From Elusimicrobiota bacterium (lineage in GTDB: Bacteria; Elusimicrobiota; Elusimicrobia; Elusimicrobiales; UBA9959), in NCBI GenBank assembly GCA_030651035.1, contig JAUSCK010000271.1, forward strand, positions 1 to 47,720: a stretch of 47,720 bases of DNA, written 5' to 3'. Both the position numbers and the translations under genes were made by a program. Below the pieces are notes generated by a model that searched no databases, was not told the DNA's origin, and saw nothing but the letters and a program-made list of their open reading frames with translations. Below are positions 19,663-47,720 of the stretch, in pieces (the stretch's first letter is position 1; every line of letters starts with the position of its first letter).

Positions 19663-20295
19663 TTATTTATCGAGCGGGATAAGCAGCTTAACGCCTTTTT
19701 CCAGGCGGTGCGGGTTGGCGACCTGCGGGTTGGCCGCCCAGATCTTCTCCCATTTTGTAAAATCGTTATAGTATATCATGGCTATATCGGCCATGGTCTC
19801 GCCTTCCCAGACCATGTGCACCGTGTAGCGGCCGCCCTTGGCGCAGGGGCCGTCGCCGAAAAGGCACTCAAAAACCGAGTTGATCTCGGCGGTAGTTTCC
19901 AGCGAGGCGATCGCCGTTGAAATGGATACCGACGGCGTCGGGGCGCTTTCTTCCATTTCGGCCAGCAGGCCCAGTATTTTAAGTTCCCGGTTCTGCGGTA
20001 AAAACTCCTCCGCGGCGGCCAGCGCCGCGCGGGCCTGCGCGTATTGGCCGTCCCGCAGGGCCTCTTTGCCCTTTATCACCAGGCAGTAGACGAGTATTTC
20101 CTTCGCGCGGGAATCATTGGGGTTTTCCTTTATCGCCGCAGAGAAGAAGGTTATGGCGTTGTCCAGCCTGCCGGCAAGGAAAAAGTTGGCGCCGCCGTCC
20201 AGCGCGTCCTGGGCGCACAGGCGTCCCGCCGCCGCAAGGAAGACCAGCGACAGCAGGGCCCCGCGCAATTTAGGGCTTGGGCGCACTGTTCCCAC
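19663..20295 (-). CDS. Exported TPR-LysM protein
   Basis: The protein has 210 residues. A signal peptide lies at about residues 10-29 (RGALLSLVFLAAAGRLCAQ). Two or three TPR-like helical pairs follow (FFLAGRLDNAITFFSAAIKE, LRDGQYAQARAALAAAEEFL). The C-terminal 60 residues are a LysM-like module (YTVHMVWEGETMADIAMIYY, KIWAANPQVANPHRLEKGVK, LLIPLD) expected to bind peptidoglycan. The start overlaps the end of the PorV-type gene by 26 nt, so the two are translationally linked. The protein could tie an outer-membrane complex to the cell wall. It is the last gene of the surface and motor cluster before a family D repeat. Domain call good, role inferred. Confidence 0.85.
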   Translation of the reverse strand: MGTVRPSPKLRGALLSLVFLAAAGRLCAQDALDGGANFFLAGRLDNAITFFSAAIKENPNDSRAKEILVYCLVIKGKEALRDGQYAQARAALAAAEEFLPQNRELKILGLLAEMEESAPTPSVSISTAIASLETTAEINSVFECLFGDGPCAKGGRYTVHMVWEGETMADIAMIYYNDFTKWEKIWAANPQVANPHRLEKGVKLLIPLDK

Positions 20296-21439: not shown

Positions 21440-21441
21440 AG

Positions 21442-21482
21442 TTAAATTAACGCACTTCATGCGGACTCTTCATTAGAGATTC
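21442..21482 (-). promoter_or_regulatory. Leader segment shared with the gene starting at 19511
   Basis: This is the partner of the segment at 19524-19564, aligned without gaps over the flank and the first hairpin arm. It places the conserved TTAAATTA end 2 nt from ATG 21439, which argues that 21439 and not 21460 is the true start of the barrel gene. Confidence 0.5.
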
Positions 21483-21551: not shown

Positions 21552-21591
21552 TAAATCTCTCATTGCACCTGCTAATACAATTAGTGTCAAG

Positions 21592-23739
21592 TTACCGGAT
21601 TATGGAGAACTTGCCTTTCTTCGTCTCGCCGCCGCCAGTTATCAGGTAAATATAGACGCCGCTGGCGGCCTCGCCTCCGGAGACGGTCTTGGTGTCCCAA
21701 AGGTACTTGCCCGCGCTGTCGGCGGCCGCCGCTTTCTGGTATACCAGCCGGCCCGCCAGGTCCACTATGGTCAGCTTGAAGGCCCGGCTGGCGCCCAGCT
21801 TCGAGAAAACTATGCCGTCGCCCAGCGTCGACTGGTCGAAGCTGCCCCCGCTGCCGGGCCTGTAGGGGTTGGGGTAAACATTAGCGGGGATGCCGCTGCC
21901 GCCGGCGCCGCCGGTGCCGTCGCCGGTGCCGCCGCCGGAGCCGGCGCCCTCCGCCTCTTTAACGACCGCGAATTTCGTATTGATGGCCTTGGAGAGGCCG
22001 GTGACGCTTTTCTCGCCGGTGTTGACGGAGGACGTCACGGTGACCCAGCCCGCCGCCGCGTCGTAGTAGGCCAGCAGGAGCGAGGCCTCCGGGTAGCCGC
22101 CCAGGTCCTCGACCCTGTAGCGGAGCTTGATGGAAATGTTGACCGCCGGGGGAGAAGAATTAGCCACCGAGAAATATAGCGCCTCGCCGATCTGGCGCAG
22201 GTCGCCGGCCGCCACCGGCACCATGGAGCTGATGATGTCCTCCTGGTACGGGAAAGAATTGGAAGGGATATTTATGACGATCGCGCCGAGCTTTGTCATG
22301 GCGTCTAAAGTCGCGGACTGGTTCGCCGGCACGGTCGTGCTCAGCCAGGTGCTGGCCAGGTAGTAGCTGACGGCGTCGCCGTTGGCATTCGTTACGGTGA
22401 TGGTGGTAACGCCCAGCACCACCGCGGTGGAAACCGCCACCTGCTGCGTTACCGACTGGCCTGAAATATAAGTGACGGCCGTGATGGTAGAGATGCCGGC
22501 ATCCGGAAAAGAAATCTGCGTGTCGGCGAGGAAGCCCTTGCCCGTCAGCGCGACGGTCGGAGTTTTGCCTATATAGAGCGGGGAGGCCGCGGTTATTTTA
22601 GGCGAGGCGTTATACTTGATGGTGAAATAAACGAAGTTAGAGACGTTGCTCTGGCCTGTTACTATCACGTTGTCGTCCGCGTCCACCGCGATCGCGTTGG
22701 AAATGTCGTTTGACCCGGCGTTGTAGGTGGAGGAGGAGAGGACGTTGAAATTCCGGTCGTATTTTATCGAGACATAGTTAGCCGCCGGGCCGGTGCCGGT
22801 CTGGCCTGTCACTATTATGTTGTCGTTGGAGTCCACGGCTACTCCGGTGGGAATGTCCGTGCCGCCGCTGTCATACACGGCGGAGGAGACCAGGTTGAGG
22901 AAACCGTCGTATTTGAGAGTGCAGTAGTCCTGGTTGACCCCGTTGTGCAATCTGCCTGTGACTATGATATTGTTGCTGTTGTCCACCGCCACGCCTGTGG
23001 CCCGGTCGTCGCTGATGCCAAAGCCACCGTCGAGAGTGGCCTCGTAGAGTTTGTGGAGGTTGTTGTCGTATTTGTACACCAGGAAATTTGCATTGGCGGC
23101 CGTGGTATAGCCGGCCGCTATCACATTGTCGTTGCGGTCTATGGCGAGAGCAGTGAACTGGTCGGTGCCTCCCCCGGCGTAGGAGGCGGTAGAGAGCTTG
23201 TTGAGCACGGGGCTGTATTTTATGACGTACAGGTCCTGGTTGCCGGCGACTTCGGTGTAGCCGGCCACGAAGATATTGTTCTGGCTGTCGGCCTTTACGG
23301 CCGCCGCGGAGTCGTATCCCGTCCCCCCGCTGTTGTATACGGCTGAGGAAAGCAGCCCCGCGAAGTTGGGGCTGTATTTCAGGGCCAGGAAGTCCAGGTT
23401 GCCTGAAGAGTTCATCTCCTCCCCGGCCACTATGATATTGCCCTGCCCGTCCAGGGTTATAGCCTTGGCCGTGCCGCCCGGGATGGCAGGGGTATAAAGC
23501 TGCTGCGCCGAGGGGCTGACGACAAGGGTCTTGCTGTACTTCTGGGAGAGGTAGTTGGTGCCGCTGTTGCCAGTAAGGAAGACATTGCCGTCAGCGTCCG
23601 TGGTCAGGGCGTAGGCCTTGTTATCCGACCCGGTAGTGGCATAGGTGGCCGAGGTGATGACCGTCAGCGGCGTCACGGCGCCGGCAGCCGCCGCGCAGCA
23701 GGCGACGAGAAGCGCCGTAATGAATGTTTTCCCTTTCAT
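21592..23739 (-). CDS. Secreted seven-repeat beta-propeller protein with C-terminal sorting-type domain
   Basis: The protein has 715 residues. A signal peptide covers residues 1-21 (FITALLVACCAAAAGAV). Residues about 30-380 hold seven SBBP/delta-60-like repeats of the pattern DxxxNIIVTGxxxxxxxYxxxKY, for example VDSNDNIIVTGQ and VDADDNVIVTGQ; this is the number expected for one seven-bladed propeller. An IPT/TIG-like domain follows (ITAASPLYIGKTPTVALTGK), then a ZU5-like region, a Gly-rich linker, and a C-terminal type A sorting-like domain (NVYPNPYRPG, LTIVDLAGRLVYQK, ASGVYIYLITG, KGKFSIIR). It starts only 6 nt after the stop of the second CheY-like gene, so it belongs to the motor operon. 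Likely surface protein; ligand unknown. Confidence 0.88.
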   Translation of the reverse strand: MKGKTFITALLVACCAAAAGAVTPLTVITSATYATTGSDNKAYALTTDADGNVFLTGNSGTNYLSQKYSKTLVVSPSAQQLYTPAIPGGTAKAITLDGQGNIIVAGEEMNSSGNLDFLALKYSPNFAGLLSSAVYNSGGTGYDSAAAVKADSQNNIFVAGYTEVAGNQDLYVIKYSPVLNKLSTASYAGGGTDQFTALAIDRNDNVIAAGYTTAANANFLVYKYDNNLHKLYEATLDGGFGISDDRATGVAVDNSNNIIVTGRLHNGVNQDYCTLKYDGFLNLVSSAVYDSGGTDIPTGVAVDSNDNIIVTGQTGTGPAANYVSIKYDRNFNVLSSSTYNAGSNDISNAIAVDADDNVIVTGQSNVSNFVYFTIKYNASPKITAASPLYIGKTPTVALTGKGFLADTQISFPDAGISTITAVTYISGQSVTQQVAVSTAVVLGVTTITVTNANGDAVSYYLASTWLSTTVPANQSATLDAMTKLGAIVINIPSNSFPYQEDIISSMVPVAAGDLRQIGEALYFSVANSSPPAVNISIKLRYRVEDLGGYPEASLLLAYYDAAAGWVTVTSSVNTGEKSVTGLSKAINTKFAVVKEAEGAGSGGGTGDGTGGAGGSGIPANVYPNPYRPGSGGSFDQSTLGDGIVFSKLGASRAFKLTIVDLAGRLVYQKAAAADSAGKYLWDTKTVSGGEAASGVYIYLITGGGETKKGKFSIIR

Positions 23740-23745
23740 AAAAAA

Positions 23746-24120
23746 CTATTCGTCCTTGCCGTAAGCCGCCAGCAGCATTTTTATGTGCTTTATCAGGTCC
23801 GCGTACTCCACCGGCTTGGCCATGTAGTCGTCGGCGCCCCTGTCCTTGGCCGAGCCCAGCGTGACGTACTTGGCGCCGGTCAGGAGTATCACGGGCATCT
23901 CCTTGAACCTTTCGTCTTCCCTTATGAGGTCAAGCAGCTCCAGGCCGTCCATCTCGGGCATATTCACATCCAGCACGGCGATGTCGGCCCCTTCTTTTTG
24001 AAGGGCTTCCCAGGCAATCTTCCCGTCTTCACAGGCCAGGACCGTATAGCCGGAGTCAGTAAGGAACTCGGTAGCGATATCCCTGAGAAACGGATCGTCG
24101 TCGGCGATTAATACTTTCAT
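23746..24120 (-). CDS. CheY-like single-domain response regulator (second of two)
   Basis: The protein has 124 residues from the start MKVLIADDDPF at 24120, which has AAGGAAG about 11 nt upstream. A longer in-frame start at 24171 would run into the neighbouring gene and add an unrelated basic leader. Acid pocket Asp7-Asp9, phospho-acceptor Asp51 (AVLDVNMPEMDG), the switch Thr in ILLTGAK and Lys in MAKPVEY are all present, and there is no output domain. It should act by binding a partner when phosphorylated, as CheY binds the flagellar switch. It sits after MotA/MotB-type genes and 6 nt before the propeller gene. No kinase gene is in the window. Confidence 0.93.
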   Translation of the reverse strand: MKVLIADDDPFLRDIATEFLTDSGYTVLACEDGKIAWEALQKEGADIAVLDVNMPEMDGLELLDLIREDERFKEMPVILLTGAKYVTLGSAKDRGADDYMAKPVEYADLIKHIKMLLAAYGKDE

Positions 24121-24142
24121 AAATTTCAGCTTCCTTATCCGC

Positions 24143-24520
24143 CTAGCCGTTGGCCGGGTAGGCCTGGGCAAGGAGCTTTACCCTCCGTACAAGTTCTTCG
24201 TTCTCGAACGGCTTGGTAAGGTAGTCGTCGGCGCCGCGCTCTATGCCCTTGGCGCGCTCGTCCATGCCTTTCCTGGCGGTCAGCAGCATCACCGGCATTT
24301 CCTTGTAGCGGTCGTCGCCGCGTATCAGGTCCAGCAGCTCCAGGCCGTCCATCTCCGGCATGTTTATGTCCAGCACGGCCATGTCGGCCCCTTTCTTCTG
24401 AAGGCCTTCCCAGGCCAGTTTGCCGTTGGCGTGCGCCGAAACCTCGTAGCCGGCCGAGCTCAGGATCATCTCCACCAGGTCCCGGATCTCGTCGTCGTCG
24501 TCAGCTATGAGTATCTTCAT
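24143..24520 (-). CDS. CheY-like single-domain response regulator (first of two)
   Basis: The protein has 125 residues and starts MKILIADDDDEIRD with AGGAG about 12 nt upstream. It has the acid pocket, phospho-acceptor Asp51 (AVLDINMPEMDG), Thr in MLLTARKG and Lys in LTKPFENEE; there is no output domain. It is close in sequence to its downstream neighbour around the phosphorylation site but differs after it (GMDERAKG against YVTLGSAKD), so the two are diverged duplicates with perhaps different partners. It stands 36 nt after the second MotB-type gene. The likely role is to signal to the motor or another complex in this cluster; that link is inference from position. Confidence 0.93.
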   Translation of the reverse strand: MKILIADDDDEIRDLVEMILSSAGYEVSAHANGKLAWEGLQKKGADMAVLDINMPEMDGLELLDLIRGDDRYKEMPVMLLTARKGMDERAKGIERGADDYLTKPFENEELVRRVKLLAQAYPANG

Positions 24521-24556
24521 AAATTCGTTCTCCTGCTTTTGCCTTACAGAGCCGCT

Positions 24557-25204
24557 TTACGGCTTGGCTACCGCGCGGCCCTGCCGCACTACAACCTCGG
24601 TCAGCGGGGTCGCCGAGGAGCTCCTCTTGCGTATCAATATCTCTACCCTGCGGTTCGCCGTCTGCTGCTCGGGGGTGTCGTTGGGCGCGAGCGGGTTGAA
24701 TTCCCCGTGCCCGGCGGCCACAAAAAGGTCGGCGCTGTTCCCCTCTTTCACCAGGAAATCTATGACGCTGATGGCGCGGTACAGCGAAAGTTCCCAGTTG
24801 GAGGAAAAGTCCCCGCCGTAGAACACCGGGGCGTTATCCGTGTGGCCGTCCACCGTGATCAGGTAGCGCCTGTCCAGGTTCTTGATGCTGGCCGCGAATT
24901 TCTGCATGGTGGGCAGGGCCGAGTCCTTCAGCTTCGCCACGCTCAGGTCGAACACCACGGAGGAAGGCAGCGTTACCTTGATGCCGTCCTCCATGACCTC
25001 CACTTTTACGTCCTCCATTTCTTTCAGGTCTTCTTTTACCGTCTGCGCGATGGTCTCGTTGCGCTCCGCGTTCTTCTTCTTAAGTTTTTCAGCGTAGTCG
25101 GCGTACTCTATCAGGAAGAAGATGCACAATATCGTCATGACCCCGATATAGGGGAGCAGATAGGCGGTCATGGCCGCTGACATATCGACACTTTTCTTTT
25201 GCAT
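24557..25204 (-). CDS. MotB/OmpA-family protein lacking the ion-binding Asp
   Basis: The protein has 215 residues. It has one N-terminal membrane helix at about 10-32 (YLLPYIGVMTILCIFFLIEY), a coiled segment (about 35-65) and a C-terminal OmpA/MotB peptidoglycan-binding domain (LITVDGHTDNAPV, ELSLYRAISVIDFL, NRRVEILIRK). The helix aligns with MotB's YxDxxT pattern, but here it reads Y19-I-G21-V-M-T24: Gly stands where the essential proton-binding Asp belongs. Its neighbour upstream (25227-25913) keeps the Asp. The two could form a mixed dimer in the stator, or this one may only anchor. The start is 22 nt after the previous stop and has a weak ribosome site. Family secure, role of the loss inferred. 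Confidence 0.88.
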   Translation of the reverse strand: MQKKSVDMSAAMTAYLLPYIGVMTILCIFFLIEYADYAEKLKKKNAERNETIAQTVKEDLKEMEDVKVEVMEDGIKVTLPSSVVFDLSVAKLKDSALPTMQKFAASIKNLDRRYLITVDGHTDNAPVFYGGDFSSNWELSLYRAISVIDFLVKEGNSADLFVAAGHGEFNPLAPNDTPEQQTANRRVEILIRKRSSSATPLTEVVVRQGRAVAKP

Positions 25205-25226: not shown

Positions 25227-25913
25227 CTACTTTTTCAGCACCAGCCTTATCTCTATGCGCCGGTTAGTGGCGCGGTTCGCATCGCTGTTGTTGGGCGCCG
25301 CCGGCATGAACTCGCCGTAGGCGCTGGCCGACACCCTCTCCGGGGCCAGCAGCTTCTCGCGGGTAAAGAACTGCAGCACCTGCAGCGCGCGCGCGGCCGA
25401 AAGCTCCCTGTTGGAGTAATAGGGCCCCAGCCCGGTGGAGCGCGCCATCGCGAGCTGCCAGCGCTTCATGCCCGCCGGCGCGGTCTGGAGAATAGGGACG
25501 TCGTCGGTATGGCCTTCCACGCTCAGGATGTACCGCGTCGGCGCCAGCGTAGTCCCGATCTTATTCAGCACGTCCCGCGCGGTCTCCTTGAGCTTCGCCT
25601 GGCCCGATTCGAAGAGCACCGGCTCCGGCAGCACTATGTGCAGGTCCTTCTCACCGATATTGACGCCCGAGATGCCCTCTATCTTGGAGAGCTTCTTCGC
25701 CGTTTCCGTTATCGTCTTGACTGCGGCTTCCTTCTGGTAAATGGCCGTGGAAACGCCCTTCATATAATCCCTGAACTCCTGCTCCGTCATGCCTTTCTGG
25801 TAAGCTATCAGGACGCTGGCGAAAAGCATCATGAAGAAAAGGGCTTCGTTGGTGATGAGGTCGCTGTAGACGCACAGCCACACCACGGGGATACTGAGCT
25901 TTTTTTTCTTCAT
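25227..25913 (-). CDS. MotB-type stator protein with conserved membrane Asp
   Basis: The protein has 228 residues. The N-terminal helix at about 10-36 reads WLCVYSDLITNEALFFMMLF; Asp18 matches the proton- or sodium-binding Asp of MotB/PomB. A linker helix follows (residues about 37-75), then an OmpA-like peptidoglycan-binding domain (ILSVEGHTDDVPIL, ELSAARALQVLQFF, ASAYGEFMPAAPNN, NRRIEIRLVL). MotB binds MotA in a 2:5 complex, and ion flow past the Asp turns MotA. The gene starts 13 nt after the MotA stop, so a MotAB-type stator is clearly coded here. It is slightly shorter than typical flagellar MotB (250-310 residues). Secure family call; the load is not a known flagellum. Confidence 0.93.
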   Translation of the reverse strand: MKKKKLSIPVVWLCVYSDLITNEALFFMMLFASVLIAYQKGMTEQEFRDYMKGVSTAIYQKEAAVKTITETAKKLSKIEGISGVNIGEKDLHIVLPEPVLFESGQAKLKETARDVLNKIGTTLAPTRYILSVEGHTDDVPILQTAPAGMKRWQLAMARSTGLGPYYSNRELSAARALQVLQFFTREKLLAPERVSASAYGEFMPAAPNNSDANRATNRRIEIRLVLKK

Positions 25914-25928
25914 GTCTTATAGCCGGCG

Positions 25929-26687
25929 TTATTCGTCTTTCCTCAGGCGCGCGGCTACGAACTTCTCCAGCTTGCGCCGCAGCACCAGCGGGGTTTCCTC
26001 TTTCTTGAAAGACAGCAGGCCTATAAGCATGAGCTGCTTGCCCAGGAGTTCTTTGTCGCTGTAACTCTCCAGTTTCCCGGCCGTGGGTAACGCGATGAAA
26101 TTGGCCATGAAGATGCCGTAGAAGGTTGTCACGATGGCCACGGTCATGGCCGCGCCCATGGCTTTGGGGTTGTCCAGGAAGCGGAGAACGCCCAAGATGC
26201 CCACCAGCGTGCCCAGCAGGCCGTAAACCGGGCCGTAGCCGCCCATGGCGGCGAAGGCTTTCTGCACCTGCTGGTGACGCTCCAGCGTGAACTCCATGTC
26301 CTTTTCAAGGCTGTCTTTTATGTCGTCCTCGTGCCACTCGCTGAGTATCAGCTTTACACCGGACCTAAGGAATTTATCGTCCTTGGCGGTGCTTTCGGTC
26401 AGGGAGTCCACGCCTTTAGTCTTGACCGTTTTTGCAATTTCGCAAAGCCGGCTGATCACGAGCAGCGGTCTGGTTACCTTCTTCGGAAAAAAGGTCAGCA
26501 GAAGCGAGCTCGGCACGTCTTTCATAACATCCAGCGGGAAGGTCATCATGGTGGAGGCGATGGTTCCCCCGACTACCAGGATAAAGGACGGCTTGTCCCA
26601 GAGAAGACTCATGATGTCTCCGGCCGCCATAGCGTACCACACGCAGCCCACGCCCATTATCAGTCCCAGCACAGTTGAAAAATCCAC
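25929..26687 (-). CDS. motA: MotA-type stator proton/sodium channel protein
   Basis: The protein has 252 residues, typical of MotA/PomA. Four membrane segments are visible (about 4-24, 32-52, 150-170, 182-205). The two functional prolines lie in GYGPVYGLLGTLVGILGVL and FIALPTAGKLE, and the cytoplasmic loop carries the charged region ILSEWHEDDIKDSLEKDMEF used in MotA to contact FliG. The start is GTG at 26687, decided by a strong AAGGAGG site 6-7 nt upstream. It lies 81 nt after the FliF-FliG fusion gene, with a stable hairpin in the gap, and 15 nt before a MotB-type gene. It resembles the flagellar MotA/PomA branch more than TolQ/ExbB. Five copies would surround two MotB-type chains. Confidence 0.93.
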   Translation of the reverse strand: MDFSTVLGLIMGVGCVWYAMAAGDIMSLLWDKPSFILVVGGTIASTMMTFPLDVMKDVPSSLLLTFFPKKVTRPLLVISRLCEIAKTVKTKGVDSLTESTAKDDKFLRSGVKLILSEWHEDDIKDSLEKDMEFTLERHQQVQKAFAAMGGYGPVYGLLGTLVGILGVLRFLDNPKAMGAAMTVAIVTTFYGIFMANFIALPTAGKLESYSDKELLGKQLMLIGLLSFKKEETPLVLRRKLEKFVAARLRKDE

Positions 26688-38900: not shown

Positions 38901-41900
38901 CGACATCCAGCTGGAAGGTTCCTGTGGAGAGGGGCGTGAACGATTGCACCGCCGTGCCGCCTACAACCGTTAACGGCGTACCTTTCAGGACGCTGTTGTA
39001 GGTGACGCTGACCGGCTTGTTGACCAGGCCCACTCCGCTCTCCTTACCCTTCAGCGTGGCGGTGGCGAAGAAGATAGTGTTGACTAAAAGGGTACCGTCG
39101 GGCGTGGTCAGCGTGGTGGAGGCCACATTGACCTTGACAAGATTGATAAGGTCGCATTTTCCAGCGTAGGTGTTATCTCCGGGATAGCACACCGTATAAT
39201 TGAAGTTACCGGTGCTTAACGGGGCCGTAAAGACGGCGGTGGTATACCCGGAACCGTTGGTAGTCCCTTCGGCGTTGAAAGTGCCCCCCCCCACGAACTC
39301 GAAGTCGATTTGGGCAAGGTCGATCCCGGAGCCGGAGATATCGTCCGTCAAAGTGGCCGCCGCGATGAACGTTGTGCCGGCCGGCTGGTTGTTAAATTCA
39401 ACGCCCGTAATGCTCGTAGGCCTTTTTATAACGTGCACGGTCAGCGCCATGGTGTTTGAGGCGTAGGTGGCGTTCCCCTCATAGGTTATGTTGCAGGTGT
39501 AGTCGGCCGAGACGGCCTGGGCGGTGAACGTGGCGGTGGCTACGCCGGAATTGTTGGTAGTCCCGTAGCGGGTGATGCCGTTGTATACGAATTTCACCGG
39601 AACATTGACGCCGATTCCCATGAGAACGGGAGAAGCCAGGGTGGGCGTATTATCCCTCAGTGTAACTGTCGCCGTAAAAATTGTGTTGGTCGGAGCTATA
39701 GGTTCCACCGTCGCGGCCAGGATGGTAGTGCGCTTGAGCACGTTAACCCCGGCGTCAGCGGCCGTGACCGCGGCGTAAAGGGTGTCGCCGTCGAAAGAGG
39801 CCGTGTAGGACTTAGAGCCGAACTCGAGCGGGGAAGTAAAGCCCCTGGTTGCCCGGCCAAGGGGCGAAGCGACCGTTGCCCCGGTGCCGCTCGTGTCGCC
39901 CTCTGACCCTCCCCTGTGGAGCGTAAAGTTTATGGTCTGCCCTATCAGGCTTGCCAGGTTCAGCGGGCTGGGAAGGTTTATAGCCGAGTCCAGGTCCGTT
40001 AAGGTGGCGGTGGAAGTGAAACTGTTCTGTATATATACGGGGTTAACGTCCACGGAAGCAAGGCTGGTGCGGCGCTTAACCACCTGCACCCTCCTGTTGG
40101 GGTCAATGGCGCTGGCCCCCAGGTCATTCGCGTTCTCCGTAAGGACGGCGGTAAAAACGTATTCCCCCGGTGTCTGTGGGGAGGTAAAGGTTACCTGGGC
40201 TATGCCCTGGGTGTCAGTGACCTGGCCGACGCCCGTATTGCCCGGGAAAGTGAAATTAATGGTTCTTCCCTGGGCCGGCTCGTACGCCGTGCCGACCAGG
40301 ACATTTAAGGTCACTTTCGCTACAAAGTTATTGCCGGCCGGCACCAGGGTTACCGGCATCCCGACGATCTGGGTGACGTTCTTTTGAACAGTTACATTGC
40401 CAACCGGGGTTAAGAAAGTGGAGTTGTAAGCCACATCGCCGGCAAAGGTAGCCGTGTAAGTATAGTTGCCTACCGGCTTGCCCGGGAATGAATACTGCGC
40501 GTAGCCTCCGCTGATCGTTGTCACGTCCTGCGGGGTGCCGCCGTCGAGCGTGATAATTACATTCTTGCCGACTACGCCGATGTTGCCCTGGGAGGTGCTG
40601 ACCAGCTTTACTTTTATGGTGATCGGCATCTGCGCGCCGACTATCAGGGGATCCGCCGTCCCCAGCTGCATCGCGGTAGGCCTCAGGCCGACCCGTAAAA
40701 TCCTCGGGTCTTCAGATACCCACCACTGGTAAAACGAACTAGAACCCGGGAAGTATACCTCAATGGGGTAATCGCCGATCTCCAGCGGAGTGTGTACGGT
40801 GGCGGTAGCCGTGTAAGCGGCGTCTACTACCGACCAGCTTGCCGGACCCCAGCTGCCTCCGGGACAATTGGACGGGTACGGGTTGCAGGCGACGCCCGAT
40901 ATCCGGTATCTCACCGGCGTCCCTATCAGTTTGAGCCTGGCGTTAGCCCTGCCCCAGTAATCCTGCGCGACTCCGGAAACAATGTAGTCCATATCCGGGT
41001 ACGCGTTTTCATGTATAGCGTTCAGCGCAATGCGGGCCGGGGACGGCTCGATGCGCACTTTTCCTTCCTGCGGCATGGACCAATTTGTCCCGCCGGGCAG
41101 GATGCTCGCGGCATAGGTCTGGTTTCCGTCAAACCTGGCCGTCAGCGGATAGGTACCCAGGTTATCATATGCGGCAAACGCCGCGCTGGAGGTGGCCTGG
41201 CCGAGCGGCGCCGCCAGGGTCACGCCCGTAATAGTCGAGCCTTGCGTGACAAAGTTGACCGTCAGCCCCGCGACGCCGACATTTCCGGCTAAGGGGTCGA
41301 ACACATACACTGTCGGCTGATAGCCGAAGAAGGTATAGGTCCATACCACCTCGCCATTGCCCAGGTTGGCCAGGACGGAGGTGGGGCGGGGATTGATCTT
41401 TACTATCTTTTCACTCTGTTCGTTAACATCGTTAGGGCTATAGCTTGCATCGCCGTCAAAAGTGCCGGCGCACCTGTAGTCCCCTAAAGAGTCTCCCGCG
41501 TAGAAAGTGGTGGAGGCGATGCCAAGCGAGTCCGTTTGCAGCGTTTGAGTCGTGCCGGAAACCGCGAAAAAGAACTTTAACGTTTTATTCGCCAAAGGCA
41601 GTCCCGCCACCTTCCCGTCGTAGAGTGTGCCTTTAACCCAGAAATTGGTAAGAGTGTACGGCTCAATGGGATTGACCTCAATGGAGAACATGACCGACCG
41701 GCGCTTCACGGTGACCGTGCCCGTGCTCTGGCTGGAGCCGTACGTGCCGTCGCCCGCGAAAGTGGCGGTATAGGTGTAAGTGCCTACAACAAGCGGCGCT
41801 ACAAACGCGGCCGTAGCCACCCCGACCTCCGTGATAGAGTTCGCCGCGGCGGTGCTGAACGCAAAAGATATTGTTTTAGTGGACAGCACCAGCGCGTTGC

Positions 41901-44900
41901 CCATCTCTATGTCGCGCAGCTTTGCCATGCCGGAGAAGGGGAGCCCTACTACGGCTTCAATGTCCAGCACTTCCAGCACGGTGGGCTTGAGCACCACTCC
42001 CACGCTGCCGCTGGCGGAGCCGGGTTTGTAGAGCGGGTCCCCGTCCGGGAAAGTCACCGTGTAGGAGAAAGTGCCGGTGCTGGACGGCGACATGAAGCTG
42101 GTGGAGGCGACGCCTATGCCGTTGGTAATTGCGGGCTTGGTGTCGGGAGTGAAGAAGAAGCTGAGCGTCTTGGCCGGGATCGCTGCGCCGCCGTCCCTCA
42201 GCAGGGCCGAGGCGGTGAAGGTGCTGCTGGCCGGGATACCGGTGTAGTCCGCCGGCTCGAGAATTATATTCCTCCTGTTCACGAGGACGGAGGAGGTGTT
42301 GCTGTAGCCGTTATAAAGCGCGGTGGCGTCAAAAGTGGCGGTATAGGTATAGTTGCCGGTTGAGACAGGGGCGGAAAAAACCGCCCTGGCCGTGCCGTTG
42401 GCGTCGGTGATGGTGGTGGAGGAGGGAAGGCCGTTGAAATCGAAGCGCACGCTTTTCCCGGGCAGGTAGGTGCCCAGTTCGAAGTCTTTCAGCCGCGCGG
42501 TTACGGTAAAGGTATCCAGGGCCACCGCGCCGAGCATGTCGTTGGTCTCCAGCGCGGTATTGCGCTTGCCGGGGAATACGACCTTGTTTATGGAGGCGGC
42601 GGAATAGAGCGTGTCCCCGGCGAAAGAGGCGCTTATGGGGGCGCTCGCCGTGCTGGCTATCGCAAAATAAGTGGCGGAGGCGTAGCCCACTGCGTCCGTG
42701 ACTACCGGTTTGGTGACGCCGTCGAAGAGGAATGAAATGGTCCGTGAGGCTATCTTGCCGCCGGTGGTGAAATCCTTCAGCACGGCATAAGCTGTAAAGG
42801 AGCTTCCGGCCGGCGGGTAATAGTCCGACATTTCAAGCGCGGCGGGCCGCAGCGTAACGGTTAAGGTATTGCTGCTGGTGGAGGGGCCGTAGTTTGTGTT
42901 CCCGTAGTATGTGGCGGAGTAGGTGTAGCTGTTGATTACTGAAGAAGAGGTATAGACGGCCCGGGCGGTGCCGTTGACATCGGTGATGGCCGTAACCCCG
43001 TAGGTGGAGTCCTGCAGCGTGAAGTTGACGGGCTTGCCGTTCATGACCCTGAGCCCGTTGTTGGTGTCTACCAGGGTGGCTGTCAGCGCGACGGTGGAAT
43101 TGGCTATGGCGGAGATCGGCCCGAGGCTTAGATTGGAGGGCCTGACGCTCACGGTCAGCGTGGAGCTGCCGGTCTGGGCGGAATAGTTGCTGTCGCCCGC
43201 GAACGCGATAGTGTAGCCGTAAATACCCGGGGCGCTGATGGAGGAGAAGGCTACGAACGTGTTGGTCGTGCCTGAGCCGTTGGTCGCGGCCGTCCTGGTG
43301 GAGCCCTGGAAGTAAAAGTTGATATTCTTTGAGGCGATGGGAACGCCATCATCAAGGAAGGTGGCGCTGAAGTAGACGTCATCCCAGACGAACTTGCTGG
43401 CCGCCAGCGGCGTGAGCGAGGGCGCGCGCCGGGTGACAGTGATCGTGCCGGTGGAGCTGGCGGCGGTGTAGGCCGTGTCGCCCGAGAAATTCGCGAACCA
43501 GCTGAATGTGCCTGTGCTCAGGGGGGTGCTGAAGGTGGAGGTTACTACCCCCTCCGCGCTGGTAACAGAGTTTATGGCGGCGGCGGTGCTGAAGGCTATC
43601 CTTATCGCCTTCCCGCTCTTCAGCTCGTTGCTGGCCCCGTCCCGGAATTCGGCTGTCACGGTGAAGGTGGTGCCCAGGACGGCGGTCTGCGGGAAGGCGG
43701 ACAGGTTCACCGGGCGGGAACTGACGGTTATGGAGGCTGTGCTGCTGTTTGCGGCATAGAGCAAATTGCCGGGGAAATCCGCGTAATAGGAGTAAATCCC
43801 GGCCACGCCGGTGGACGGGTACGTCGCGTAGGCCCTGCCCAGGGCCCCCCCGGAGGAGCCGGTAGTTGTTGACTGCGGCACTCCGTTGTAGCTGAAAATT
43901 ATGGTCTGGCTGCTCATATATTCGTTGGTCCCGACGTCTTTCAGGGCTACCACGGGCTTTATGGCGTCATTGGCTAAGCTGTACGCGGGGTATGCCGTGA
44001 TCGCCACCATGCGCTTAGCCATGGTCACGGTGCCCGTGTCGTTGCCGGCCAGGTAGACGTCGTCCTGGTCGAACGAAGCGTAGAATTCGTACGCGCCGGT
44101 GGAGACTCCTGACTGGTAGGTGACCGAGGCCACGCCCGTGGAGCCGGTGACCCCGGTTTTAATTTCGCCCAGGAAGCTGAAGGTTATGATTTTCCCGGCT
44201 ACGACCACCGGGGGGTTAAAGGCCATGTCCTTTAGCGTAGCTACGGCGGTGAAGCTGGAGTTGAGCTGGGTGGTGACGCCGGAGGCCGCCAGCGCTATCG
44301 GGCGCCTTTCTATGGAGACCGTGGCCGTGGAGTCCGCGAACTGGTAGGCGGCGTCGCCGGAGAAGTAATAGTAGCAGGTGGAACCGCGGGGCAGCGAGCC
44401 GGAATTAAACACGGCGGTGGACACGCCGTTGGCGTCGGTCAGCACCGTGGCCGAGGAGGTCTCGAAAACGAAGACTATAGGTTTCCCCGCCACCTTCAAT
44501 GCGCCGTCGGAGAGCACCGCGCGGGCCTGGAACGAGGCATTCACATAGCCCGTCAGGTTGTCGCCGGCCAGGCTGGGCTGCCGCCGGCTCACGGTAATTG
44601 TAGCTTCGCCGTAGCTGGCCGCGTAGGTTTCATCGCCGTAGAAGAACGCGGTATAGTTGTAGGTGCCGGAGGAAGCCGGAGCCGTGAAGGAGGAAACCGC
44701 TATGCCGGAGGCGTTCGTGAGCGCGGTATACGAGGAATTCTGGAAGACAAAGTTTATGGTCGCCCCCGCCACAAAGAAGGCCCCGTCCTTCAGAACGGCC
44801 TGGACCCAGAACTCGGTATCCACCGGGGCTGTGACGGGCGACGCCACCAGGCTGGTCACTTTGTATCCCACGCCTACCCTGCCCGTGGCTGACTTAGCGG

Positions 44901-47720
44901 CGTAGACCGGCCCCCCCGCGTAAGAGGCTGTGTAGTCATAGAAACCTACGGGGACAGGGGCCGTGAAGGTAACAGTGGCTACGCCTATGCCGTTGGTCGC
45001 GGCAGTTGCCGTCATGCTCTCGAAATTAAAGGTCACCGTGGCGCCGATTATCAGCGCCGCGGGGTCGCTGTCGCGGTCTTTAAGGATAGCCTTGGCGGTG
45101 AAGGACGTATTGGAAGTGCCGTTTATGTCCTCTGTGATCAGGTTGGTGGGACGCTGCGTGGCGGTTACAGTGCCGGTGCTGCTGCTGGCCGAGTAGACGC
45201 CGTCCGTTGAGAAAGAGACCCCGTAAACATATGTCCCGGTCGCCGCCGGCACGTAAAAGTCGGCCGCGGCCGCGCCATAGGAGTCCGTTTCCGCGGTCCT
45301 GGAAGAGCCGTTGAAATAGAAGGTGAGGGTCTTTCCTGCCAGCGGGTCTCCGGTAGGCTTCCAGCTAAGGGTCGCACTGGCGGTGAATGTCGACACCTCG
45401 GCCGGCACCGACATCACGCCGCTGGCCGTGCCGGATTTGGCGGCGCCGAGCAGCGAGGTTTTTGAGTCCAGGAGGATGTTGTCGTAGGGGTAGGTGGAGC
45501 CGCCGGCATTATTGGTTACGCGGTAATAGACCCTCTTGTCCCCGTCCCCTTCGCTGAGCGTCCAACCGGTGGTGGCGCGGGCTAACTCGGGAGTAGTATA
45601 TGTGGACGGGTTGTTGACGTCGTTATTGTATGAAACTTCTTTTACCCCGGACTCCGGGTCGGCATAGGTCAGCGAAAGCGTCACTTCCCGGCGCGGGGTG
45701 TAGGTGTTGCCTCCGTTTATTATTACGCCACCGGTGGGAATAGACGTGTCTATCTTGTAGGGATTGTTTACGGGGTTGGCGCCGGAGTAGTTGTAGCCTA
45801 AATTGCCGGCGATATCCTCTACTTCAATGTGCAGATACCATTGGCCGTCGGTGGCTTTGTTCGTGTTGTAGGTGCCGCTGTCGCCTGAAACGGTGTAGGC
45901 CCATCCCTGCCAGCCCCCATCGCCGGTGGCAGGCCGGCTGATGCTGTTAGTCCAATTGCGGCGCACCCGCCGAAGCTTGGAGCCGCCTGTGTCTGAAACC
46001 GAAACTACAGGGTTGACACCGACGCTGCTCCACGGGCTGGAGGAGGGGCTGAAGCCTGTAACTGTAGGCGCAGTCTTGTCGTACCAGTACGGGCCGTAGG
46101 TCTGGTAGCCGGGCAGCGGAACATTCTCGGCGTTGTAGGATTTTACGTGAAGGTAGTATGTGCCGGAAATCGTCACTGGATTCGGAAGCGTGCCGGAGAG
46201 CCACTGCGTCTCCGCGCCGGTCCAAAAAGCTTTAGAGGCGCTTGTGTTCCAGGCGTAGCGGTAGTAAGCGACGCCGCCATTGCCGAAGCCGGCCATATTG
46301 AAGCAGGTGAGCGTGCCGGTGAGCCAGGTGCTGGCGGGAAAGTCGCAGCTGACGCTGGGTTCGGCGGCCAGCGTGTACTTTGAGACCGGGGAAGGGACGC
46401 TGACTCCGGCGAAGTTGTAGCCGACTATCAGGCGGGAATACAGCGTGTTGGGGAGGAGCGAGGTTTCAATCCAGAAGGTCGTGCCCGCGGCCACGGACCC
46501 CATCAGGACGCTGGTGGTGCCGTGCAGCACCCGGAAACCCTCCTCCTCGTATTGGGCGGAGGAATTGTCCGTCCAGCGCCAATTTATGGAGTTTGCCGAG
46601 ATGGTGGTTCCGGCGGCGCCGCTGGGAGCGTTCGGCGGGGAGCCGTAGGTAAGCGTTACGCTGCTTAACGTGGCCGTATAGCGCGGGTCCAGCGTCGACA
46701 GGTTAAGGCGGTACTGGACATAGCGCCCCATAACCGCGGGGTTCCCCCCTTTGGAGGCGGCCGTGAAGGTGCTCAGTTCGACGTCGGTTTCGTGCGCGCG
46801 CATTTCAAACGTCAAAGAGGCGCTCGACGGCGTTACCGACGCCCAGTCTATGCCCTGGTACTTCGTGCCGGACACCGAGCTGTCCTTTACCTGCGAGACG
46901 AAATTTCCCGAGGGGTAGCGGAGGCCCTGCCCAAGGCCGGGAGAATCGTAAACCGGTTCCGGGTACGAATAGGGCTGTACGGAGATGTCGTCGAAAAGGA
47001 ATTCTTGCAGCGGGGAGGAGTCGTTGGCCGCTTCCAGGTAGATATAGGGGCTGATGAAAGGGAGGTCGTTCACGGCGCTGTAGATCTGCGTGCCGTCGAG
47101 CAGGACGGTGAAGGAGGAGGCGTTTACAAGGATGTCCACCCCGCGGAAGCCCGCGCCCGCGGCGCCGGAAACCAGCGTGGTTTTTGAGCCGTAGTCGCTG
47201 CGCTCAAGAAAATACGAGGCCCCGGCGGCGGAATGTTTTATGGAAAAGCGGAGCCAGTGCTCCTGGCCGAAGGAGGTATTATAGATCGTCTGGCACAGCG
47301 TCATGGCTGACCAGGATTCGCCGCCCGTGCTTGCGTTCAGGCTCGCGCGGTAGTGCCTGCCCGCCGCGAACGAGTACTGGTTGACGCTGCGCAGGCCGTA
47401 ATAGCGCATGTTGAGGGGGCTGCCGAAGAGCAGGCGCAGCCGGTTCGACTGTATATCGACCAGCGAGCCTGTCTGCGGGGGCGCCGACGCGATGGTCGAC
47501 CAGGTGATGGCGCCGGGGGCGGTGCCGTCGGCGGCGTTGAAGTTATCGCCCATCACGAATGTGCCGGCCATGCTGGAGGCGGCCGCGGCGGAGGTGCTGC
47601 CGGAGTAAAGGTAGACGGCGCCGGCGCCGGCGGCTGCCGAGGGGAGCTTTACCCAGATCTTTGTGGCGGCGGTGTTGATGCCCGACTCGATATAGTAGGA
47701 CAGGGTGGCGGCGCTGCCGG
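29902..47720 (-). CDS. Giant secreted Ig-repeat adhesin-like protein (partial, N terminus outside window)
   Basis: The frame is open to the window edge: at least 5,938 residues. An internal Met at 47571 is not the start, because the sequence before it continues a DUF2341-like domain (TKIWVKLPSAAAGAGAVYLY). Then follow a LamG-like region (about 47570-46960), an FN3-like domain, beta-rich modules, and about 49 tandem Ig-like domains of about 99 residues (Big_3_5-like; consensus FTATATLxD..., VxFxF, TNxxGVATATFTAP, STGTY, FAGDxTY, TVTVxRRPT). Near the C terminus are one FN3 domain, a ZU5-like region and a sorting/FlgD-like domain (VTIRIFDITGSLVRR, KGGVYIYQME, TGTVVVAK). It overlaps the barrel-TPR gene by ATGA. 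Its size and layout recall SprB-type gliding adhesins. Surface location is likely; the ligand is unknown. Confidence 0.9.
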   Translation of the reverse strand, partial: GSAATLSYYIESGINTAATKIWVKLPSAAAGAGAVYLYSGSTSAAAASSMAGTFVMGDNFNAADGTAPGAITWSTIASAPPQTGSLVDIQSNRLRLLFGSPLNMRYYGLRSVNQYSFAAGRHYRASLNASTGGESWSAMTLCQTIYNTSFGQEHWLRFSIKHSAAGASYFLERSDYGSKTTLVSGAAGAGFRGVDILVNASSFTVLLDGTQIYSAVNDLPFISPYIYLEAANDSSPLQEFLFDDISVQPYSYPEPVYDSPGLGQGLRYPSGNFVSQVKDSSVSGTKYQGIDWASVTPSSASLTFEMRAHETDVELSTFTAASKGGNPAVMGRYVQYRLNLSTLDPRYTATLSSVTLTYGSPPNAPSGAAGTTISANSINWRWTDNSSAQYEEEGFRVLHGTTSVLMGSVAAGTTFWIETSLLPNTLYSRLIVGYNFAGVSVPSPVSKYTLAAEPSVSCDFPASTWLTGTLTCFNMAGFGNGGVAYYRYAWNTSASKAFWTGAETQWLSGTLPNPVTISGTYYLHVKSYNAENVPLPGYQTYGPYWYDKTAPTVTGFSPSSSPWSSVGVNPVVSVSDTGGSKLRRVRRNWTNSISRPATGDGGWQGWAYTVSGDSGTYNTNKATDGQWYLHIEVEDIAGNLGYNYSGANPVNNPYKIDTSIPTGGVIINGGNTYTPRREVTLSLTYADPESGVKEVSYNNDVNNPSTYTTPELARATTGWTLSEGDGDKRVYYRVTNNAGGSTYPYDNILLDSKTSLLGAAKSGTASGVMSVPAEVSTFTASATLSWKPTGDPLAGKTLTFYFNGSSRTAETDSYGAAAADFYVPAATGTYVYGVSFSTDGVYSASSSTGTVTATQRPTNLITEDINGTSNTSFTAKAILKDRDSDPAALIIGATVTFNFESMTATAATNGIGVATVTFTAPVPVGFYDYTASYAGGPVYAAKSATGRVGVGYKVTSLVASPVTAPVDTEFWVQAVLKDGAFFVAGATINFVFQNSSYTALTNASGIAVSSFTAPASSGTYNYTAFFYGDETYAASYGEATITVSRRQPSLAGDNLTGYVNASFQARAVLSDGALKVAGKPIVFVFETSSATVLTDANGVSTAVFNSGSLPRGSTCYYYFSGDAAYQFADSTATVSIERRPIALAASGVTTQLNSSFTAVATLKDMAFNPPVVVAGKIITFSFLGEIKTGVTGSTGVASVTYQSGVSTGAYEFYASFDQDDVYLAGNDTGTVTMAKRMVAITAYPAYSLANDAIKPVVALKDVGTNEYMSSQTIIFSYNGVPQSTTTGSSGGALGRAYATYPSTGVAGIYSYYADFPGNLLYAANSSTASITVSSRPVNLSAFPQTAVLGTTFTVTAEFRDGASNELKSGKAIRIAFSTAAAINSVTSAEGVVTSTFSTPLSTGTFSWFANFSGDTAYTAASSTGTITVTRRAPSLTPLAASKFVWDDVYFSATFLDDGVPIASKNINFYFQGSTRTAATNGSGTTNTFVAFSSISAPGIYGYTIAFAGDSNYSAQTGSSTLTVSVRPSNLSLGPISAIANSTVALTATLVDTNNGLRVMNGKPVNFTLQDSTYGVTAITDVNGTARAVYTSSSVINSYTYSATYYGNTNYGPSTSSNTLTVTLRPAALEMSDYYPPAGSSFTAYAVLKDFTTGGKIASRTISFLFDGVTKPVVTDAVGYASATYFAIASTASAPISASFAGDTLYSAASINKVVFPGKRNTALETNDMLGAVALDTFTVTARLKDFELGTYLPGKSVRFDFNGLPSSTTITDANGTARAVFSAPVSTGNYTYTATFDATALYNGYSNTSSVLVNRRNIILEPADYTGIPASSTFTASALLRDGGAAIPAKTLSFFFTPDTKPAITNGIGVASTSFMSPSSTGTFSYTVTFPDGDPLYKPGSASGSVGVVLKPTVLEVLDIEAVVGLPFSGMAKLRDIEMGNALVLSTKTISFAFSTAAANSITEVGVATAAFVAPLVVGTYTYTATFAGDGTYGSSQSTGTVTVKRRSVMFSIEVNPIEPYTLTNFWVKGTLYDGKVAGLPLANKTLKFFFAVSGTTQTLQTDSLGIASTTFYAGDSLGDYRCAGTFDGDASYSPNDVNEQSEKIVKINPRPTSVLANLGNGEVVWTYTFFGYQPTVYVFDPLAGNVGVAGLTVNFVTQGSTITGVTLAAPLGQATSSAAFAAYDNLGTYPLTARFDGNQTYAASILPGGTNWSMPQEGKVRIEPSPARIALNAIHENAYPDMDYIVSGVAQDYWGRANARLKLIGTPVRYRISGVACNPYPSNCPGGSWGPASWSVVDAAYTATATVHTPLEIGDYPIEVYFPGSSSFYQWWVSEDPRILRVGLRPTAMQLGTADPLIVGAQMPITIKVKLVSTSQGNIGVVGKNVIITLDGGTPQDVTTISGGYAQYSFPGKPVGNYTYTATFAGDVAYNSTFLTPVGNVTVQKNVTQIVGMPVTLVPAGNNFVAKVTLNVLVGTAYEPAQGRTINFTFPGNTGVGQVTDTQGIAQVTFTSPQTPGEYVFTAVLTENANDLGASAIDPNRRVQVVKRRTSLASVDVNPVYIQNSFTSTATLTDLDSAINLPSPLNLASLIGQTINFTLHRGGSEGDTSGTGATVASPLGRATRGFTSPLEFGSKSYTASFDGDTLYAAVTAADAGVNVLKRTTILAATVEPIAPTNTIFTATVTLRDNTPTLASPVLMGIGVNVPVKFVYNGITRYGTTNNSGVATATFTAQAVSADYTCNITYEGNATYASNTMALTVHVIKRPTSITGVEFNNQPAGTTFIAAATLTDDISGSGIDLAQIDFEFVGGGTFNAEGTTNGSGYTTAVFTAPLSTGNFNYTVCYPGDNTYAGKCDLINLVKVNVASTTLTTPDGTLLVNTIFFATATLKGKESGVGLVNKPVSVTYNSVLKGTPLTVVGGTAVQSFTPLSTGTFQLDVAFAGDAAFFATSGSATITVNRRASGIAMSNANTTVSAVFIATATLSDLSASPNTLVAGRQVNFQFNNGLTSTAATNGVGVATTSFTAPPGFGAFVITSTFTGDPIYNSTSTAATVFVAKRATQLTVSPYTIPALDVFNATATLKWSNGTIAVPGKIIRFTYKGVSQDGTATDVDGKSYSPYFNADASSGPWQVDAAFVDATDTAYDLSSGSNTITVLRRDCVAFPDNISMKVYDTFNATVTFRDVTSSSTPAGKYARVAFTPTWIPSTGTTNTATNGAGKAYFQNQTAPPESGIYKVESWFLGDATYNPSIASTATVTVTKRSTQLSLANVSTMIGRVFTATATLSNFSVLLDDRDVLFTFEGRTFNAKTGGASGAGIAVATFTVTISTGGTQIFADFAGDASYLANVPSPATATVTAAMRPTAITNYSFMAVKDLVFIATGTLKDIDGLEVPGRPVSFEFNTVTLTTNTNSVGVATAAYLANVATGLWPIWVHFDGDYKYIASTTTLQMTVQKRPTSILPLSSNITVRALDVFYATATLRDMDNTPLTIPKPVYYIFSSSSFTKVTDGAGVAVSTYAAPASSGTYYANIYFDGDSEYEPSAAAITVTVQQRPAGINLATLLTSVKALDPFKSTATLTDLNNASFKVSTRPVTFSFSWGENTIASTDGVGVATASYSATAIADNDYTLTGSFAGDATYASTSTVIPFPVIKRDGFVTGVYVSTRVLDVFTAIGTFYDSVTLSTVSARTMKFGLQNGSTLTATSETAGVYSVDFTAPAASGTYILSIWADADATYNATSVYYSSATLARRDSSIALTGPTASIIGSSFTAGGTMYDSVSGGFAQSRLISFHFQGTTVPATTNVFGATSTVYTALLTTGTFALQASFAGDATYNPSVSTRSIVVVRYPTKLAAPAITVTMNEVLTATATLTNYKDDAVQTQTLTFSFLTLPDQTPLTNGSGIAYADYSTVGVASGTYMLPVSYAGDSQYESTNTAIPVLVKKRTALLTTDPVTVKALNIFTATATLSDLRNTSQKLNGQTVIFEFLVGASPITNSGVTDINGVAVSTFTAPAEIGGYQIRTYFSGNATYYPLETYSAATVDPRPARLMQDNAIGIIDELFRTTATLVDIETSQPILSKMIVFGFGVNPSSSALTAAGGKASVGFTAPSSSGPYALSSAFAAGDTTYTAANSTAVLTVIRRTALLTAPDISGIIDEVFTATVTVSDALQPADKISGSTMSFAFSGNTFLSLTSAGGIAVSTFSAPAPSGMQYATINFYGTDRHLPNSTTVQISVDKRPSAINPETIITRASEIFTATATLRDTLKPSDNPAGRQLWFTFGASSFTALTDSLGLATATFMSPPSSGTARLDISFAGDPRYQASAASTTVTVLQRLSLMTLNPVTIAAMDVLTAGAILSDKNIPGVFAGNRNITFSFRGENFNSVTDGDGIAVSTFAGPVSSGTYLLEASFAGDSVYAASYSSVLAVVLQRAADIAVTDSSAYPLETFTAAGLLKDRTTQGPVAGRYLGFLLNSVSSGGVTNDVGVATVTYTPPSESGAYSLRAEFAGDATYASTTSFGTVQVLQRPTTVYALDAGTIALDVFTASATLSDIRFSTVIAGQDIVFTFEGVSSTGTTDAYGVAAASFTAPVSSGTYYYQARFAGSSVYAVSYSTGAVAVGTRFTRVVARDMNANVGEPFTLKGVLTDPAKEGLDGFFVPNVQMQFKFKDKDGVLVDTAYAITNEIGVATVTLNGPGEPSVYFYTASFYGNYTYSASSATAMVKVGLLTSIVAFDVETVALEKFTGKAKLTDYLSTTLDDKPVRFTFLDQINSGRTSADGNSGVASSSFTAPSSSGTYYYYAYFDGDSIYSASNATATVIVKLRPSGILVYPATAMAFSSFTATMQLGNILEPYDSIAGRNVDISFKGNTITAVTDGDGLASALFFASASSGTFSFSASFSGDDTYSSSVRVGTVTVTRRPINMLTYNVTDVTANSTFTAKVQMKENDGDPVPGLGVSFDFGGAPAIGTADAFGMAEVIFTAPASSGVYAYNAVFYEDSLYVGTSSSGSVTVGPRPTLVFTSATSAKLGDPVSLSARLVDVSNQGGIQGEPLSFYFEGSTLTALTDSLGVSTVTFAAPLSTGSYSYEAVFNGNGVTYLGSSSSAPVTVAMNLTTLVAATGISLKIFEPLQVEATIMSGDVRLPGLPISFNLMSSSLTSITDGFGKATATFSTMDMPSTGTYNYSADYSGGTLYMASSDTSNVVSVYRRDSLLIARDAQAVPSKAFTAEAKFYDNVNGSAFMGNIIPGKTIIFELNYSTFTQTRTAVTSALGVSTASFIAPSSTGTYLLTARFGNGDPIYEGALSSVTLTVLLDDGTGAIKTRLRLESATSYITKTFVASGTLTATELPVPGKYVLFEFFNGASTSQALGFTDELGLSTASFTAPASSGAYLITASFSTGDPNYSSATGTGTVTALRYPDSLAAQAVVAYAGEVFPAKAVLRDSLTQLVIAGRTVTFQFFNGISTATKMAVTSSTGSAETTFTAPSAPGDYTFKALFAGTSEYADSQDAAAILIASKGSSADLIAYEIFIGTGEVFVAMSSFTSKGLAVPGKAVSITFQGITRISTTTSGGLAFSTFTAPSSSGTFVLQASFAGDDAYNAALATAAVSVVFRKQPEPPATLKVEVASASVTLVWAPIIQDQLDGYIIEEGLTLRGKPSTTVIVSSSTLGYTSTASADTATYFKIKTKLDDDQEGATSLIVEVPSKTDDPDRVPNYYYISPDEGEYEYAAWVKIPGKVMDKVTAAAADFKIEVKKDNRSGFLASYTITAHGDQKKMAADLKASDKKGVRLTIAYPVKSGTGTSATGDLRAIYWFNGVEWIKLGGEIDVQTGEIYTYSRVLGQFAIKAAPLASSFTLTKVAPRIFSPDEADTNVNRARFYFENPAGNEVTIRIFDITGSLVRRNLESEGANIMFWNGKNQAGTLVKGGVYIYQMEAGEEVLTGTVVVAK
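30905..45430 (-). repeat. Array of about 49 Ig-like domain repeats (protein-level)
   Basis: By hand I split this part of the giant protein into 49 units averaging about 99 residues, most ending in a linker like TVTVxRRPT. The units are diverged in DNA sequence, with no long identical copies, so the array is old or under diversifying pressure rather than freshly amplified. Units 14-19 are longer and less regular, near the middle of the array. Confidence 0.85.

Follow-up and report, generated by a model that had tools for sequence, protein, structure and literature searches.

Gliding and type IX secretion (T9SS) in Bacteroidota, with GldKLMN, SprA, PorV and SprB-SprF as components, combine an ion-driven motor of the 5:2 type with giant adhesins bearing sorting CTDs and with PorV-class barrels; cargo and barrel are paired there, as in SprB-SprF. 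In the AglRQS-Glt machinery of Myxococcus, surface components are driven by flagellar stator homologues of the TolQR class, two different B subunits being present per motor; to our knowledge, no FliG/FliF rotor takes part in this machine. MotAB-class proteins also occur outside the flagellum in the defence system Zorya (ZorAB), for which we know of no rotor, PorV or adhesin. A survey of flagellar loss reported that 11% of non-motile species keep rotor proteins although they lack filament genes, and raised the question of another function (PMC12199754). Flagellar genes were found to be absent in Elusimicrobia by single-cell genomics (PMC7031533), and a phylogeny of MotAB makes no mention of Elusimicrobiota (PMC12505986). 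No prior description of a motor-adhesin system of the kind considered here was found in the literature searched, the scope of which left aside bioRxiv and the 2020 groundwater Elusimicrobia genome paper; this suggests that the system is undescribed.

The stretch of DNA analysed here (the window, 47,720 bases) is an entire contig, C111, of a 4.47-Mb Elusimicrobiota MAG. It shares with the flagellar motor the homologous RBM3 domain of FliF, the middle and C-terminal domains of FliG, and a MotA/MotB pair of the flagellar stator clade. In contrast to the flagellar motor, FliF and FliG are fused, neither FliM/FliN nor FlhA was found, the EHPQ motif is not kept, and an outer-membrane barrel and an adhesin replace rod, hook and filament as partners. 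The system is not a flagellum, as it has no export gate, no FliM/FliN and no complete FliF. The T9SS features present in the window are PorV-family barrels and a sorting CTD on the cargo, and its cargo-barrel gene pairs resemble SprB-SprF; unlike the Bacteroidota machinery, however, it uses MotAB and a FliF-FliG rotor rather than GldLM, and its barrel carries a TPR tail. The AglRQS-Glt machinery differs in that the stator of the window is of the PomA/MotA class and a FliG rotor is present. The non-flagellar use of MotAB-class proteins is shared with Zorya, whereas rotor, PorV and adhesin are found here in addition, and the operon, as far as it is annotated, shows no defence genes. The system appears to work like a motor-driven adhesin system, yet it is assigned to neither the flagellum nor type IX secretion.

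A preliminary description of this DNA had placed all named genes in one direction and had pointed to their tight packing. Each of them was confirmed on the minus strand at its position, and the ATGA overlap, the 6-nt gap and the 26-nt overlap were all borne out (Table 1). A further cargo-barrel pair, Kelch-PorV (6944-13891), was absent from the list of that description; it lies outside the motor block, follows the same cargo-PorV design and is kept in relatives.

Table 1. Genes of the motor block in transcription order and the additional cargo-PorV pair of the window.
Feature	Positions	Strand	Spacing	Remarks
Giant surface protein	29902-47571	-		First in transcription order; Ig repeats and CTD
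PorV-TPR	28268-29905	-	4-nt ATGA overlap with giant	Pfam/NCBIfam, AF2, VIA
FliF-FliG fusion rotor	26769-28190	-	77-nt gap after PorV-TPR	Pfam, PDB profile search, AF2 and VIA
MotA	25929-26687	-	81-nt gap after rotor	Stator A subunit of MotA/PomA type
MotB1	25227-25913	-	15-nt gap	Stator B subunit; Asp18 and OmpA/peptidoglycan-binding domain
MotB2	24557-25204	-	22-nt gap	Second B subunit; channel Asp replaced by Gly
CheY-like response regulator	24143-24520	-	36-nt gap	Single domain
Second CheY-like receiver	23746-24171	-		Listed TTG start; likely ATG 17 codons in, at ~24120
Propeller protein	21592-23739	-	6-nt gap	Secreted; beta-propeller/delta-60 repeat; T9SS type A sorting domain
PorV/PorQ family barrel	20270-21460	-	131-nt gap	Directly downstream of the propeller cargo
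TPR-LysM protein	19663-20295	-	26-nt overlap with PorV gene	Periplasmic
Third cargo-PorV pair	6944-13891	-		Kelch/Fn3 protein of 1961 aa with CTD (8006-13891) and PorV (6944-8002)

The rotor protein (473 aa) comprises an N-terminal helix and an RBM3 domain (residues ~24-167), a transmembrane segment (~173-196) and the middle and C-terminal domains of FliG (~250-464). For the window protein, FliG_C lies above the Pfam cut-off and FliF_C and FliG_M match more weakly; in its paralogues all three are above the cut-off. When a profile of 30 homologues was compared with solved structures (PDB profile search), FliG was matched with an E value of 7e-55 and FliF with 4e-8. In the AF2 model (pLDDT 67), residues 250-464 align to C-ring FliG (VIA, Z 15.7) and residues 24-167 to FliF RBM3 (VIA, Z 12.6, 1.8 Å over 101 residues). 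Weak Foldseek matches of the latter segment to the OsmC/Ohr fold were outranked in Z by RBM3 and discarded. Because of the Pfam matches, the profile search and the AF2/VIA alignments, the protein is identified as a mini-FliF, that is, the third ring-building domain alone, followed by a membrane helix and the FliG middle and C-terminal domains. The designation as a FliF-FliG rotor, given in the preliminary description, therefore holds for the fusion and for the FliG middle and C-terminal domains, but not for a whole FliF: no complete FliF with RBM1-3 was encountered, only residues ~24-167 of the 473-aa fusion being periplasmic and matching RBM3, and neither RBM1, RBM2 nor FliG_N was recognised in it. 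Furthermore, the FliM-binding EHPQ motif of FliG is not kept in the rotor, and the torque helix of the window type is devoid of R281, D288 and D289 (E. coli FliG numbering), whereas the other rotor types retain an acidic residue at position 288. With these canonical charges missing from the torque helix, stator and rotor must make their classical contact weakly or in a rewired form. Orthologues of the rotor gene are present in the Elusimicrobia MAGs GWC2_64_44, GWB2_63_16 and HGW-Elusimicrobia-3, which places the window in the order Elusimicrobiales of the Elusimicrobiota; such relatives were recovered with an alignment search, a single-protein search having given none.

For the stator, a search of solved chains gave a full-length match of the window MotA to PomA (residues 1-244, 1.5e-37), and residues P153, P201 and T160 are invariant in 59 of 59 homologues. 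A motor of the ExbB/TolQ/GldL type was ruled out, the closest solved chains being PomA and MotA, with the TolQ model matching at 0.0056 only. Judged by their sequences, MotA and MotB are assigned to the true stators of the flagellar (FIT) class, of the PomA/MotA type. The TT pair in the channel region of MotA (residues 187-188), together with PomA as the closest match, weakly hints at sodium use. Both MotB-type proteins of the preliminary description are present; it had overlooked, however, that MotB2 has a glycine at the position of the ion-binding Asp18 of MotB1. This substitution is not isolated. Across the examined loci, the channel aspartate is kept in 70 of the 82 MotB-like proteins, and in the 12 without it (D to G, N or A) the partner MotB at the same locus is intact in every case. 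An aspartate-less MotB2 is seen in the window (24557-25204) and at loci L098, L100, L105, L113, L116, L120 and L123. The aspartate pattern points to a recurring asymmetric MotB pair, and it is possible that MotB1 and MotB2 form a heterodimeric stator axle with a single ion site. As a separate observation, the MotA-MotB1-MotB2 trio is diverged in the relatives G020 and G003 (L038:16752-18903, L041:3545-5720), with 43-50% vs 73-85% identity, and in G020 it is placed downstream of TPR-LysM; this may reflect a stator exchange between otherwise orthologous motors.

The two CheY-like regulators that had been described are likewise both present. The first (24143-24520) is conserved in all relatives, but the second is peculiar to the window genome, the relatives having a single regulator at this place. 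A histidine kinase and a receiver are encoded upstream of the giant in the relatives. At L056 and at the motor loci of type C (L067, L070, L074, L077, L079, L083), several receivers adjoin the rotor; L056 has, in addition to these, three kinase-like proteins that contain HATPase_c domains, one of them with dCache and PAS. These kinases and receivers may represent a non-MCP sensory control of the rotor.

The PorV-TPR protein consists of a PorV/FadL-type barrel (residues ~20-310) and a C-terminal TPR part (~340-545), as assigned by Pfam/NCBIfam. Its AF2 model (pLDDT 80.6) matches the T9SS protein PorV (8gl6_F; VIA, Z 31.2, 2.6 Å over 276 residues), a match that is tied with FadL/TodX channels, and it scores 42 bits on NF033709, below the cut-off of 90. 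The window barrel at 20270-21460 reaches 168.9 bits against the same cut-off of 90, and that at 6944-8002 also exceeds it. By analogy with FadL/PorV topology, the TPR domain, which follows the last strand, should be located in the periplasm. The window genome contains ~37 PorV-family matches, few of which have a TPR tail. In nine genomes, TPR-tailed barrels adjoin a rotor gene in 20 of the 22 resolvable high-scoring cases; three TPR-tailed barrels are without a rotor nearby, and some rotor loci are likewise without a nearby barrel. At type E loci the TPR part has a gene of its own, located after two MotBs inside the motor operon, as if it belonged to the motor. The TPR-LysM protein of the window is a possible peptidoglycan anchor.

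The giant is built of Big_3_5 and Invasin_D3 Ig repeats, and its last 95 residues form a FlgD_ig/T9SS type A-like CTD, which lies at the limit of TIGR04183 (23.1 vs cut-off 23); the propeller and Kelch proteins are above this cut-off. A giant Ig-repeat protein is thus present where it had been placed, but the start at 47571 is not the true one, as the gene runs past the contig end and its frame stays open to base 47720. Complete orthologues measure 6,022-6,821 aa, with an N-terminus ~170-190 residues longer that carries a signal peptide and DUF2341. In relatives (L038:8708-9055, L044:19628-19978), a gene of 115 aa lies between the giant and PorV-TPR and encodes a signal peptide and a stand-alone CTD, ~70% identical to the giant's own CTD. 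Mini-CTD genes occupy the same position at the distant loci L105, L104 and L108. In the window (29902-30190) this gene is missing and the giant abuts PorV-TPR directly, as if recombination had taken place between the two CTD copies.

Barrels placed after their cargo are not confined to the motor block. As seen from a comparison of coordinates, a PorV barrel lies directly downstream of 14 of the 22 T9SS-CTD matches in the window genome, three of these pairs being inside the window. Cargo-barrel pairs are therefore a general design, to which a motor has been added in the TPR-tailed ones. The arrangement of large CTD cargo directly followed by a dedicated PorV is genome-wide, with examples on the G000 contigs C183, C235, C198, C153, C259, C117, C67, C130 and C27. 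Among the cargo ORFs, some are longer than 5,000 aa, and an ORF of the relative G001 (C102) encodes 11,748 aa.

Conservation of the gene order in relatives, which the preliminary description had proposed as a check, was found within the genus and again in other families and classes, where it is joined by the co-evolution of rotor and barrel. At the genus level, the block is kept in six complete and three partial relatives. The genes for an AMP-binding enzyme, a CCA-adding enzyme and GTP cyclohydrolase, housekeeping neighbours of the block, are syntenic as well; same-genus synteny is therefore weak and was set aside as proof, and the argument rests on distant loci. The distant comparison covers 40 loci from other families and classes, with 71 rotor genes overall. 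The window genome itself and its relatives have additional rotor loci, whose rotors are 14-22% identical to that of the window; they fall into the recurring types B to E, which gives five locus types (A-E) in all and up to five motors per genome, with 4-5 cognate sets. In 58 of the 71 loci, a TPR-tailed PorV is encoded no more than 3.5 kb from the rotor, and MotA and MotB occur in the fetched stretch around the rotor in 58/71; a CTD gene stands directly upstream of the TPR-tailed barrel in 44 of the 71 rotor loci. Locus L105, from another class, reads CTD giant, CTD mini-protein, PorV-TPR, FliF-FliG, MotA, MotB, MotB, CTD protein and PorV, which is the order of the window minus the receivers. 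The distances among rotors and among barrels are correlated (r = 0.93), and rotor and barrel are cognate nearest neighbours in 43 of 44 cases, compared with a mean of 16.6 and a maximum of 30 when partners are permuted within genomes (500 shuffles), a control for species and not for the shared ancestry of locus types, from which some of the correlation arises. Rotor and barrel co-evolve as cognate pairs.

Of the 341 Elusimicrobiota genomes, 154 carry the rotor fusion, and they represent 69 of 100 genera, with near-full profile coverage among the matches listed; a few weaker matches within this count, in FlhA-bearing genomes, could be genuine flagellar FliG. Nearly all members of a small-genome sister family lack the fusion, and those sampled have few PorV barrels and few CTDs. 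The FlhA export gate was found in none of 61 relatives and in five of the 341 genomes of the phylum, the window genome not being among them, and FliM/FliN (PF01052) gave no match above the cut-off in 61 genomes; the controls for these flagellar searches (E. coli, B. subtilis, Caulobacter, Thermotoga) were positive. Nearly all Elusimicrobiota are without flagella. The five genomes with a real FlhA include G144, G148 and G187 (L095, L096), and G144 combines FlhA with a full rotor-barrel locus (L133). Searches for the SprA translocon and for GldL (0/41 genomes each) and for the PorU C25 peptidase (0/61 genomes) were equally silent in the control genomes, and these results are not counted as absence.

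Collectively, these findings make it probable that the locus encodes a non-flagellar, ion-driven rotor-stator motor, coupled through TPR to a PorV-bound giant adhesin that it moves, rotates or exports. The machine is known here from genes and models, that is, from the identities of its components, their linkage and their co-evolution. MotA and MotB1 (and MotB2), in keeping with their homology, would form a 5:2-type stator that is held by peptidoglycan and driven by ions. The fusion protein, to judge by its domains, would assemble into a ring whose RBM3 part lies in the periplasm and whose FliG part lies in the cytoplasm, and to which the stator would impart torque; such a ring would need neither FliM and FliN nor a rod, a hook or an export gate. 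The rotating RBM3 ring may be met in the periplasm by the TPR tail of the barrel protein, through which torque would reach the outer membrane; such a contact is suggested by the linkage of the genes, by co-evolution and by the recurrence of the TPR part. The barrel would in turn hold the CTD of the giant, which would be moved, rotated or exported by the motor, resulting in surface movement or attachment. The linked histidine kinases and CheY-like receivers would switch or gate the motor. That flagellar motor parts take the place of GldLM beside PorV-exported adhesins, as had been put forward, is consistent with the linkage, order and co-evolution, with the restriction that "FliF" is RBM3 alone. 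Gliding is a plausible output, although sequence alone cannot separate it from powered export or from a rotating fibre used for attachment.

Powered export and fibre rotation would be outputs of the same coupled motor, and the probabilities given to them consequently overlap with that of the main reading. According to the former, the motor substitutes for GldLM in a type IX-like secretion of CTD cargo and moves neither the cell nor the adhesins. T9SS type A-like CTDs and PorV barrels are indeed present in the operon and as about a dozen pairs throughout the genome, and Bacteroidota use one motor for both secretion and gliding (PMC8986121). However, most cargo-PorV pairs have no adjoining motor, which is tied to one TPR-tailed type of barrel; a motor that served secretion in general should be present once and not in 4-5 cognate sets per genome; and the sensory kinases and CheY-like receivers linked to the motor speak for a control of movement more than for constitutive export. 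We regard export as the sole function as a tentative option, on the unlikely side. It is unlikely, too, that the motor serves to turn or retract a fibre for attachment, or to sense contact with a surface through the load on that fibre, without net movement of the cell: the great length of the Ig-repeat fibre (5,900-6,800 aa), the linked kinases and receivers and the peptidoglycan-binding partners would fit such a role, while five parallel motor types in the lineage, and as many as five in one genome, are more than a sensor would seem to need.

The remaining explanations do without any coupling between motor and adhesin. The barrel and the giant could simply serve adhesin export as an ordinary pair, with a MotAB-FliG envelope machine that works independently of them encoded in the same operon; the motorless cargo-PorV pairs scattered all over the genome would fit this. 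The rotor, however, goes with the TPR-tailed barrel only and co-evolves with it across classes (43/44 vs at most 30 in permutations), which renders this explanation quite improbable. A vestige of flagellar genes, standing beside surface-protein genes by chance, is barely conceivable. Rotor remnants without filament genes do occur in many non-motile species (PMC12199754), and five Elusimicrobiota genomes retain FlhA, but the rotor frames are open over their full length, multicopy and spread over 69/100 genera, the rotor is co-inherited with the barrel, and the key residues of MotA and MotB are kept. The vestigial flagellum was thus rejected on distribution, full-length frames and co-evolution.

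The proposed motor-adhesin machine provides a concrete and testable set of partners for a flagellar rotor without a flagellum, and bears on the question of what use a flagellar motor can have when only part of it is present. If the reading is correct, giant surface adhesins would be coupled to an ion-driven motor in a second, independent way, GldLM being the other, and the flagellar rotor-stator core would be able to work and diversify without a flagellum or type III export. At somewhat less than an even chance, the loci may belong to a phylum-wide class of trans-envelope rotary machines, in which a minimal flagellar core turns or translocates PorV-anchored giants, with several cognate copies per cell and, in some of them, a one-aspartate MotB pair. 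The proposed machine leads one to expect motility on surfaces, or a display of adhesins driven by the motor, in a large phylum of which hardly any member has been cultured, and Elusimicrobiota would, if it holds true, gain a flagellum-free surface motility.
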